A DNA stretch of 64,000 bases from Haloglomus salinum (GTDB lineage: Archaea; Halobacteriota; Halobacteria; Halobacteriales; Haloarculaceae): positions 1,364,001 to 1,428,000 of the forward strand of contig NZ_CP101153.1 of assembly GCF_024298825.1 (NCBI RefSeq), given 5' to 3'. The notes under the pieces are model-generated. The model worked only from the letters and a program-made list of their open reading frames with translations. It had not been told where the DNA came from and did not search any database. Shown piece by piece: positions 1,955-42,017 of the stretch. A program made the position numbers and the translations under genes. Every line of letters starts with the position of its first letter. Position 1 is the stretch's first letter.

Positions 1955-2066
1955 CACGAAGCCCTCGCGCAATCGAACAACCACAGCAACGACCGGGACA
2001 CTCACGAAGCCCTCGCGCAATCGAACAACCACAGCAACGACCGGGACACTCACGAAGCCCTCGCGC
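1955..2066 (+). repeat. 48-base tandem repeat, about 2.3 copies
   Basis: The block starting CACGAAGCCCTCGCGC recurs at 1955, 2003 and 2051 with an exact 48-base period. The first two units are nearly identical and the third breaks off after 16 bases, where hairpin A begins. Each unit contains the inner part of the element's terminal inverted repeat. The period is a multiple of three, so frames stay open across it, but no coding function is apparent. There is no spacer diversity, so this is not a CRISPR array. Confidence 0.85.
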
Positions 2067-2166
2067 GCTCCGGGTCCCTGACTCGCTGCGCTCCTCGGGT
2101 TCGCTTCGCTCACCCTGCGGTGCTTGCGTCGTCAGGTGACCCGGAGCCCGCTCGCCCTTCGAGTCC
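2054..2166 (+). repeat. Structured repeat, copy A
   Basis: Member of a five-copy hairpin family in this window. The ends GAAGCCCTCG and CGCCCTTCGAGTCC enclose a perfect 10-base stem (2067-2076 with 2138-2147) extended by CCTGAC/GTCAGG. The conserved loop motifs CTCGCTGCGCTCCTC and CTGCGGTGCTTGCGTCGTC lie inside. A minus-strand remnant with the same ends but no hairpin insert lies at about 2564-2589, so the hairpin looks like an optional module. Confidence 0.7.
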
Positions 2167-2612
2167 GCCAGGGATTGAACGTGGCACGGAGCGGGGCCCT
2201 GCCCTTCCCCAGGTCGCGCGGGCCTCGCTGCTCGCGGGGGCGCGGAGCGCCCCGCACCGCTCGGCCACGCGCTCCCGGCCCGTGGACCATCGGGCGCGCA
2301 TCGCCGTCAGTCGGACGGGCACGCGCTGGCGGCCGTGCCCAGAGGGCCGGCCGCCTCTATACGTGCGAGGGCTGAGCATCGCAGCGAGCGGCGCGAGCGA
2401 GAAGCGCAAGCGGTTGGGGAGGTGTGAGGCACAGGCAGCCCGACTGACGAACAGCGGGCCTGGTGTCCTCGCGAGCGGAGCGAGCGAGGGGGTTCGAGAC
2501 GGCAGAGCCGTCTCGTCGTGCCGAAAGTCGAAGATTTTCGGGCAGCTCGAGGGAGCAAGCTCCCTCGGTGGACTCGAAGGGCGAGGGCTTCGTGGCCGTC
2601 TCCATCGTCGTC

Positions 2613-21235: not shown

Positions 21236-21346
21236 GACTGCCGCGTGGAGGCCAGCGGGCAAAGGCGTGCCGGGGACGGGTTCGTGGCTGTAGGGGACGT
21301 AGTTGAAGGGAGATTCAGAATGACGATACGTGAATCGAACCGATTT

Positions 21347-21474
21347 GGAAGCCCCTGACCGCTCGACCGGCCGGGCCTCGCTGCGCTCCTCACGTCGCTC
21401 CCTTCGGTCGCTCGTTGCGGTGCTTGCGTCGGCCGGGCCGGGTCGAGGCGGCCAGCCCCTTCCATTCCCACCCG
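21347..21474 (+). repeat. Structured repeat, copy B
   Basis: 128 bases. The ends are GGAAGCCCC and CCCCTTCCATTCCCACCC. The stem CCGCTCGACCGGCC pairs with GGCCGGGTCGAGGCGG with two bulges. The loop motifs CTCGCTGCGCTCCTC and TTGCGGTGCTTGCGTCG are shared with the other copies. It lies upstream of DUF1405 and faces copy C. Confidence 0.75.
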
Positions 21475-21542
21475 AGATTGTCCGTTCCACGGGGCGCACA
21501 CACCGAGCTAGCATGGTGTGGACGCGACCTCGGACAGCCACA

Positions 21543-21664
21543 GGGCGGGACTGAAAGGGGCCGCGGGCTCGGCGGGGCCCGGACGACGCAAGCACCGCAG
21601 GCCGACCGCAGGGAGGCCGAGGAGCGCAGCGAGGCCCGGCCCCCCGAGCCCGCGGGGGCTTTCA
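21543..21664 (-). repeat. Structured repeat, copy C
   Basis: 122 bases, read on the minus strand. The ends are GAAAGCCCCC and GGCCCCTTTCAGTCCCGCCC. It has a perfect 12-base stem, CCGCGGGCTCGG with CCGAGCCCGCGG, entirely different in sequence from the stem of B but equally complementary. The loop motifs CTCGCTGCGCTCCTC and CTGCGGTGCTTGCGTCGTC are conserved. Confidence 0.75.
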
Positions 21665-21794
21665 ACAGCTCCCTGTCTCAACAGCTCCCTATCGGTGCTG
21701 TCAGCAGCAAACTCACCAAGCCAATCCAGTACCTACGCACCACCAACCTACCACGGAACGCAAGAGGGTTGACGCACGGCCCGCGAGAAGGGGT

Positions 21795-24611: not shown

Positions 24612-24760
24612 TGACATCCTCCTCCGCCTGAAGGCGGAGGAATCCCGACCGCGGTTGGGATATTAGGGTTTGCAGTCTACCACTTGTTCCTGCGGTTGGA
24701 ATCCGCTGGACAAGTCGTGAAGGTAGACTCCGGGCTGTGCCAACCAGCCGGTACTCCTAT
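24612..24760 (-). ncRNA. Candidate omega-RNA (TnpB guide RNA) at the right end
   Basis: In characterised TnpB systems the guide RNA is made from the 3' end of tnpB and the right end of the element, and its last bases read into flanking DNA as the guide. Here that places it on the minus strand from the tnpB tail to just beyond the hairpin at 24620-24641. The location is inferred; only the hairpin is directly visible. Confidence 0.4.
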
Positions 24761-25985
24761 CCTCGTCCAAACTGGCCGAAGACTCGGAGTTACTTTCGTC
24801 GTTGATGTTGAGACGGATGTTCTCCGCCCCATTCAGGTCCGCGTTGAACGCCGCATCACACGCCTCACAAACGTACAAGCCACGTTCAACACGCTGACTC
24901 TCGTCTTCTCTACCGCACACACAACACCTCTTGCTCGTGTCGCGCTCCGAAACTTCTACGACCTCGATGCCCTCGACCGTGGCTTTGTACGTGAGAATCG
25001 AGGTGAAGCGGTCAAACGCCCACCCGTGCAGGTCAAGGTTCCCGTGACGACCCCAGTTCTTCGTCTCTCCGTTCTCGTCCTCACGGACACCAGCGAGTTC
25101 ACCGACGTTAATGCGGCCAACTCCACGCTCGATACACCTCTCTACGATGTGTTTGGCGAGGCTGTGGAAGAAGTGGGTGCGGCGCTCCGACCACTTGTGG
25201 TGCAATCGGGTGGCCCGTTCGCCACCAGGATCGTCGCACTTGGCGATTTCTTTGGGGAAGTAGTAGCCGTCCTGTTTCAAGCGGTTTCCGGGGTACAGGT
25301 CGGCTTCCTCGGTGCTGTACGCGACCGCCGCGAAGTTACAGATGCCGAGGTCGATTCCAGCCGTCTCGTCACCCGGCGCGTTGGGCGTCTCGATCTCGTC
25401 TTTGCAGACGAGGTGCAGTTCCCATCGCTCTTTCTGCTTGTCGTAGACGGCGCGAACTTGTTGCAGGTTCTCGACGGTGACGCCTGGCCGGGTTTCGTAT
25501 TCGACAAGGATGTATTCCCATGCTTTCGGGTGTTCCTTGTGATTCGCGCCTTTCGAGAGGCGGACACGATTGTTCTTGGTGTCGTGTTTGATGCCGTTCT
25601 GTTTCCACGTTACCGTGCTACGCGGGTGTTCTTCGTGGACTCGGCGGCCTACTGAGTCGTAGTAGTTTTTCTTGCGGTAGCCGGGCGGATTCGCTCGACC
25701 GTCTGCCTTCCTCTTTCCGTACCACGAGTTGAAGGCTTCAGCGAGTTCCTCCAGAACGCGCTGACTGGACTGCGAGTGCAATCCCTTGTACTTGTTGTGG
25801 GTCTTCAACTCGTCTTTGAGGTCGCCGTGGTCAGGAATCTCGCCCGTGTCTTCCCACTGTTGTCGAGAGTGGTAGTTGGCGACGTTCCAGAGCTTGCTGG
25901 CCGACCACCCGTGCCGGTCGAGCGGTTCCTCTACCTGTGAGTGGTTGCGGATGTTCGCTCGGTGGGTGCGGTGGATTTCCAGCAT
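24663..25985 (-). CDS. tnpB: TnpB RNA-guided nuclease (OrfB transposon protein)
   Basis: A 440-residue TnpB with an apparently complete RuvC site: D212 in AGIDLG, E296 in NVGELAG and D383 in NADLNGA. The zinc ribbon cysteines CCVC (354-357) and CEAC (373-376) are intact. An N-terminal helix-turn-helix-like domain precedes. A TATA sequence on the minus strand at about 26001-26012 gives leaderless spacing to the ATG. No internal stop or frameshift is seen, so it should be an active nuclease. TnpB cuts at donor sites and promotes retention of the element (known for the family). Confidence 0.92.
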   Translation of the reverse strand: MLEIHRTHRANIRNHSQVEEPLDRHGWSASKLWNVANYHSRQQWEDTGEIPDHGDLKDELKTHNKYKGLHSQSSQRVLEELAEAFNSWYGKRKADGRANPPGYRKKNYYDSVGRRVHEEHPRSTVTWKQNGIKHDTKNNRVRLSKGANHKEHPKAWEYILVEYETRPGVTVENLQQVRAVYDKQKERWELHLVCKDEIETPNAPGDETAGIDLGICNFAAVAYSTEEADLYPGNRLKQDGYYFPKEIAKCDDPGGERATRLHHKWSERRTHFFHSLAKHIVERCIERGVGRINVGELAGVREDENGETKNWGRHGNLDLHGWAFDRFTSILTYKATVEGIEVVEVSERDTSKRCCVCGREDESQRVERGLYVCEACDAAFNADLNGAENIRLNINDESNSESSASLDEDRSTGWLAQPGVYLHDLSSGFQPQEQVVDCKP

Positions 25986-41693: not shown

Positions 41694-41848
41694 GGGTGGG
41701 AATGAAAGGGGCCGCCGGCTGCGGGAAGCACGGCGACGCAAGCACTGGACTGTATGCCCGGAACGCTGGCCGAGCGAAGCGAGGCCAGCGCACGCCCGGA
41801 ACAGGAAGCGCGCAGCGAGCCGCGCGACCGCAGCCGGCGGGGGCTTTC
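41694..41848 (-). repeat. Structured repeat, copy E
   Basis: 155 bases, minus orientation. The ends are GAAAGCCCC and GGCCCCTTTCATTCCCACCC. The perfect stem CGCCGGCTGCG pairs with CGCAGCCGGCG. The interior is longer than in other copies and holds additional hairpins (GCTGGCCTCG with CGAGCGAAGC neighbours). The motif GTGCTTGCGTCG is kept. Confidence 0.75.
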
Positions 41849-41892
41849 TACCGCTTCTGGTCGTCTGCTGGTACGAGACACAAGCAGTTGTC

Positions 41893-42017
41893 GAAAGCCC
41901 CCGCTCGCTCGACCGTCCGGGCCTCGCTGCGGTCCTCGGTCGCTCGCGCTGCTCGCTCCCTGCGGTCCTTGCGTCGTCCGGGACGGGTCGAGCGACCGGC
42001 CTCTTTCATTCCCACCC
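41893..42017 (+). repeat. Structured repeat, copy D
   Basis: 125 bases. The ends are GAAAGCCCCC and CCTCTTTCATTCCCACCC. The stem TCGCTCGACC-GTCC pairs with GGACGGGTCGAGCGA, with one bulge. The loop motifs CTCGCTGCGGTCCTC and CTGCGGTCCTTGCGTCGTC are present with one- or two-base changes. It faces copy E through the GAAAGCCCCC ends, opposite to the B/C arrangement. Confidence 0.75.

Follow-up and report, generated by a model that had tools for sequence, protein, structure and literature searches.

Variable hairpins of constant shape as probable ends of non-autonomous mobile DNA elements in haloarchaea

The locus studied here raises the question of what is conserved, and why, in a set of repeats whose stem sequences vary while each copy continues to pair with itself. 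A preliminary description of the window, the 64,000-nucleotide stretch of the Haloglomus salinum genome that was analysed, had reported five such copies (A–E) and taken their compensatory changes as the sign of a conserved structure, in either RNA or single-stranded DNA. We propose that A–E are probably hairpin-shaped ends belonging to a large haloarchaeal family of non-autonomous mobile DNA elements.

A shared fold with variable stems

A covariance model, R1, was built from 22 complete copies of the H. salinum genome aligned by sequence alone, without fitting to a structure model; A, D and E are not among the seeds, whereas an exact duplicate of C and a near-duplicate of B are. On the window R1 gave exactly five matches (E-values 3e-27 to 1e-13), which are the five copies originally described, their coordinates having been right to within 1–4 bases. 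The features of the window are:

1955..2066, + strand: tandem array outside end A, 2.3 copies of a 48-bp unit
2053..2170, + strand: copy A, left end of a composite element; type III hairpin end, foot CGAAG/CTTCG, tail AGTCCGCCA; R1 72.8 bits, E 1.4e-14
2171..2487, no strand: A-element core, with motif CCCTGCCCTTCCCCAGGTCGCGCGGG at 2197 and about 80% similarity to the core beside 823240
2567..2593, − strand: second-end remnant of the A element, type III, tail TGGACTCGAAGGGCGAGGGCTTCG; recognized by sequence, no R1 match
21280..21750, no strand: composite element BC of about 471 bp, its ends uncertain by 10–20 bp; B and C on either side of the 69-bp core, with an outer flank beyond each
21347..21473, + strand: copy B, type II hairpin end, foot GGAAG/CTTCC, tail ATTCCCACCC; R1 120.2 bits
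21474..21542, no strand: B–C core, 69 bp, homologous to six other short cores
21543..21663, − strand: copy C, type I hairpin end, foot GAAAG/CTTTC, tail AGTCCCGCCC; R1 108.9 bits
41694..41848, − strand: copy E, hairpin end in which the apical hairpin is long, tail GGGTGGGAATGAAAGGGG; R1 68.8 bits
41849..41892, no strand: E–D spacer, 44 bp
41893..42017, + strand: copy D, hairpin end, foot GAAAG/CTTTC, tail ATTCCCACCC; R1 128.5 bits

An end is about 120 bp long and, from GAAAG to the tail, comprises a foot, an opposed CCC/CCC loop, a long variable stem, an internal loop, a small paired motif, an apical hairpin of variable length and the tail itself. The foot consists of five covarying pairs (GAAAG/CTTTC, GGAAG/CTTCC or CGAAG/CTTCG), and the CCC/CCC loop above it is invariant in the 22 seeds. 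The conserved internal loop lies around CTCGCTGCG and CTTRCKTCG, while the small paired motif is GCTCC/GGTGC or GGTCC/GGTCC, with T opposite T at its middle in most copies. The tail is AGTCCCGCCC, ATTCCCACCC or AGTCCGCCA, and foot and tail together set three end types (I–III). The shared ends and loop motifs noted at the outset are indeed present, A differing by a third version of the ends, CGAAGCCCTCG..CTCGCCCTTCGAGTCCGCCA. The view that stems differ completely between copies was slightly overstated, as a CTCGACC arm is common to B and D, but the stems do vary with pairing kept. Similarly, the proposal that structure is conserved rather than primary sequence is correct for the stems; the CCC/CCC loop, the internal loop and the tail, however, are kept in sequence beside the shape.

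Two small perfect palindromes (for example GTTCGAGAGAGC..GCTCTCTCGTGATCCCGAAAATCGAAGATTTTCG) make up a nested mini-element of about 60 bp, which is found inside hairpin loops of the main element at loci L193, L197, L207, L208, L235 and L254, at 1320908–1321082 of the H. salinum genome (G000), at ED in G001 and at about 2488–2566 of the window.

The self-pairing claimed for each copy is borne out by DNA folding, which beats dinucleotide shuffles for all five (z of −3.25 for A, −2.12 for B, −2.57 for C, −2.27 for D and −5.21 for E), the values for B, C and D being modest. The decisive evidence for structure, above these single-copy scores, is covariation across copies. The RNAalifold consensus of the seed alignment contains 30 pairs, 17 of which show two-sided change. 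When 88 copies of the H. salinum genome were considered, two-sided change extended to 23 of the 30 pairs (449 such cells) and the covariation score was 0.433, shuffles giving 0.139 ± 0.007 and slid partners 0.083 at most, while 85 copies from other haloarchaea, at loci picked by a 20-base tail motif only, scored 0.359 against 0.110 ± 0.006 in shuffles, both alignments leaning towards R1 because they were fitted to the model.

The preliminary description had named a covariance-model search and a covariation test as the way forward, and had allowed that the family might be confined to this genome, lack covariation or arise by chance under shuffling. Covariation proved strong, none of 500 shuffles reaching the score, and further copies occur in many haloarchaea. 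In the H. salinum genome (chromosome 4.19 Mb) BLAST with ED gave 77 matches and R1 found 101 copies at some 70 places. Copies are present in 44 of 59 relatives, several genomes holding at least 59. Of the genomes drawn from the phylum, 22 of the 24 that belong to the order were positive, compared with 0 of the 124 from outside it, and all of the matches listed from a tail-motif scan of 84,980 species genomes (at least 80 loci) were haloarchaeal. Related sequence also occurs on plasmids of many haloarchaeal genera. A phage collection searched with two elements gave no match, and three viral contigs carrying the tail motif were set aside as they did not match the covariance model.

Composite elements and their fate in sister species

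What the preliminary description lacked is that the copies are for the most part paired ends of composite insertions, which are absent, inverted or mosaic in sister species. Two-copy clusters in the H. salinum genome are arranged with tails facing ('+−') in 28 cases, compared with three '−+' and one '++'; 37 single copies stay outside element assignment. Spacings in the '+−' clusters are 69–71 bp (n=7), 265–275 bp (n=12), 304–327 bp (n=7), 292 bp and 460 bp. The short cores are mutually homologous and the long ones have conserved motifs of their own; cores of 15–27 bp occur in other haloarchaea, and in one genus (G124, G037) many closely similar copies carry the hairpin fused to a further module. 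Within one element the outer flanks at either end agree at 7.6 of 14 bases, compared with 5.6 of 14 between different elements (p 0.0005), so the elements have outer inverted repeats, albeit imperfect ones; a search with the outer-end pattern gave few matches. In contrast, the stems of the two ends are no more alike within an element (48%) than between elements (50%), which suggests that each end folds on itself. A fold of the whole element, which at 430–470 nt gives one long foldback, was rejected on the same ground, the two ends having no common stem sequence; local hairpins are the better model. A typical element would thus consist of two ends of about 120 bp, with 3' tails (AGTCCCRCCC or ATTCCCACCC) pointing towards each other over an intervening core of some 15 to 330 bp, and imperfect outer inverted repeats would form its outer bounds.

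All 70 clusters are intergenic, on gene calls made with a simple script, and the orientation of the neighbouring genes is near background. No conserved gene lies inside the elements, and the search for an autonomous version returned an 838-bp core (L197) that holds only small membrane-like ORFs.

In the remnant second end of the A element the hairpin is replaced by other small palindromes. Outside end A, each 48-bp unit of the tandem array contains the first 14–16 bases of the hairpin end. Similar arrays lie outside elements at 2022057, 2053584 and 2969606 of the H. salinum genome; their units (about 48–57 bp) start with the first 14–16 bases of the adjoining hairpin end and continue with a locus-specific stretch.

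Among the sister species, G001, G002 and G003 all lack BC at the corresponding position, where 26–35 bp of unalignable filler lie between conserved flanks, and a 94% copy of BC is found elsewhere in G002. The element at 500118 is likewise absent in G001 and G002, with filler in its place. No target duplication is visible at these two empty sites, at which the filler blurs the borders and leaves no sharp ends. As the empty sites hold unalignable filler, the absence of BC and of the element at 500118 could conceivably reflect deletion in the sister species. Other elements are shared with these species: ED and the element at 1161065 with both G001 and G002, and the A element, at the same place, with G002. 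The many elements shared between species may be old, a point that weighs against the mobile reading, as do the blurred borders.

Shared elements are not static. At ED in G001 the segment between the two tails, with both hairpin ends and the 44-bp spacer, is inverted while the flanks are unchanged, the borders of the inversion being the tail of E (GGGTGGGAATGAAAGGGG) and the tail of D. At 1161065 the right halves in G000 and G002 are nearly identical and the left hairpins differ; at other shared sites too the insides of the elements differ between orthologues. We read these mosaics as conversion or replacement by other copies. Two further sites were observed. In the 645100 region of G002 (L160), compared with 707964 in G000, a type II hairpin is cleanly missing in one species, with GGAAGCCCCTGGCCG joined to CTTCCATTCCCACCC, and at G003:C22:125977-127647 (L169) the ED site contains more than 1 kb of extra, apparently coding DNA adjoining a single hairpin end.

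It could be argued that such patchy replacement between orthologues, together with two-sided changes that have very few intermediates and with the varied small palindromes common at the same loci, reflects mutational self-correction, in which the copies are inert remnants whose pairing is restored without selection, by template switching or by hairpin repair as the DNA replicates. The opposed CCC/CCC, however, is a fixed mismatch that stays uncorrected, the internal loop and tail are conserved, and the spread of the copies is left unexplained, so that we regard this account as quite unlikely. Self-correction may nevertheless act together with the mobility that we favour, and the compensatory changes may stem in part from hairpin-templated DNA correction and not from selection alone.

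Probable DNA hairpins and a protein that may move them

RNA helices usually pass through G.U pairs. The paired cells of the H. salinum genome comprise 2295 Watson-Crick, 40 A.C/C.A and only 17 G.T/T.G combinations, and in other genomes 43 G.T/T.G cells were found compared with 56 A.C/C.A; the wobble excess expected of RNA is seen on neither strand. Pairing is thus nearly all Watson-Crick, which favours a DNA hairpin over RNA. It should be emphasized, however, that the scarcity of G.T, which is moderate evidence for pairing in DNA, could reflect high G+C too. The original reading of the compensatory changes stands in that structure is kept while the stem letters vary, and its choice between RNA and single-stranded DNA is sharpened towards DNA.

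The alternative is that the hairpins are transcribed and function either as small RNAs or as cis-regulatory ones, covariation then recording RNA folding. The strength of the covariation, the conserved internal loop and the stability of the RNA folds are in keeping with this proposal, and a transcribed PATE has been reported in Halorubrum (PMC10544981). Set against it, in addition to the near lack of G.U on both strands, are the arrangement of the copies as inverted pairs, their absence at some orthologous sites and a gene-orientation context near background. Rfam 15, moreover, had no match in the window at the gathering score, and with the threshold relaxed to an E-value of 10 one whole element gave only a chance-level match (E 4.4). 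A structured RNA is thus an unlikely explanation. A directional terminator or cis-regulator was rejected in view of the same gene-orientation context.

If the family is mobile DNA, what moves it? Haloarchaea are rich in IS200/IS605 elements (PMC3119063), and it could be argued that the repeats derive from these, as REP/BIME with a Y1 RAYT or as PATE, with ends processed on single-stranded DNA by a Y1 transposase. Consistent with such an origin are the hairpins near the ends, the lack of a visible target duplication and the head-to-head dimers, which also occur in REPs (PMC3733652). Copy number, however, does not follow Y1 transposase genes in the 59 genomes (Fisher p 0.38 and 0.59, rho −0.004), and some complete or near-complete genomes that are rich in copies have no Y1 gene at all (for example G005, G026, G037 and G058). 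In the H. salinum genome no TnpA or TnpB gene has a copy within 3 kb, the nearest TnpB being 3.0 kb and the nearest TnpA 13 kb away, which is within chance. The ends, in addition, are mutually inverted with inverted outer flanks, unlike IS605 or PATE ends. A Y1 transposase was therefore rejected as the mover, and derivation from IS200/IS605 appears very unlikely. The window does contain an apparently intact IS605-type TnpB-like gene (24663–25985, − strand, 440 aa), 3 kb from BC, with no hairpin end bordering it. All-against-all comparison of the ORFs beside copies revealed only ordinary families, with no recurring mobile-element, transposase or integrase family; that neither a mover gene nor an autonomous version was found counts against the mobile-element explanation.

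In the mobile-element explanation each end would fold on itself as DNA, either as a single strand or as a cruciform. The combination of variable stems with fixed unpaired bases suggests that a protein supplied in trans may read shape and unpaired bases, not stem letters, and move or rearrange the element. More tentatively, it is possible that the ends are recognized by the folded-hairpin shape and unpaired bases with the stem free to vary, that the enzyme is distinct from Y1, and that inversions of the ED type are one of its reactions. If the explanation is correct, these elements, unnamed in the literature searched, are among the commonest intergenic features of many haloarchaeal genomes. They would provide a lead to a new recombinase, and with roughly 100 natural variants of a single folded DNA structure in each genome they would amount to a natural experiment in the reading of DNA shape by proteins. 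Strong covariation alone would then be no proof of RNA, and pair switching with hardly any G.T intermediates may mark DNA hairpins when structured RNAs are called.

Relation to known repeat families

Haloquadratum walsbyi contains transposase-free mobile repeats, termed MITE, PATE and SMR, for which the genome paper describes the exchange of one repeat for another, or a change in its orientation, at the same site, as well as insertions accompanied by deletions (PMC3119063). The present elements are similarly short, non-coding and numerous, without visible target duplication, and display nesting within palindromes, same-site switches of repeat or orientation and insertions with small deletions. 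Outer inverted repeats are shared with SMR and MITE; indeed the elements have the MITE traits of being short and non-coding with terminal inverted repeats, in the form of alike but imperfect outer flanks, while their hairpin ends match the near-terminal palindromes of PATE and IS605-type elements. The nested mini-element resembles SMR-A in its habit of insertion into palindromes. SMR-A, however, is about 110 bp, highly uniform and inserted into PATE palindromes, whereas here the ends alone are about 120 bp, vary in sequence with a constant shape and belong to composite elements of several hundred bp between ordinary genes. PATE lack inverted ends and are IS605-related; in contrast, the elements described here have inverted ends with similar outer flanks, and an IS605 link was not found.

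As with REP/BIME, the repeats are intergenic palindromes with about 100 copies, head-to-head dimers and stem variants, but REPs are 20–40 bp long, carry a GTAG or CGTC tag and contain GT pairs in their stems (PMC3733652), whereas the ends reported here have hardly any G.T. Unlike REP/RAYT systems, types I–III have no constant foot tag and no link to Y1 genes.

In integrons, the recombinase relies on shape and unpaired bases to read the folded single-stranded attC hairpin, the stem of which varies in sequence, and the reading proposed here would work in a like manner. Unlike attC sites, the copies have no gene cassettes and no integrase beside them and form composites of two inverted hairpins; by eye, the attC core boxes RYYYAAC and GTTRRRY are absent among the invariant columns.

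The initial impression that no named element has these features agrees with the lack of an Rfam match and with the literature, in which none of six motif sequences was found in any paper searched, coverage being thin for subscription papers and supplements. While a description of the present hairpin-end repeats was not found in that literature, their behaviour fits the picture drawn from the mobile repeats of Haloquadratum.
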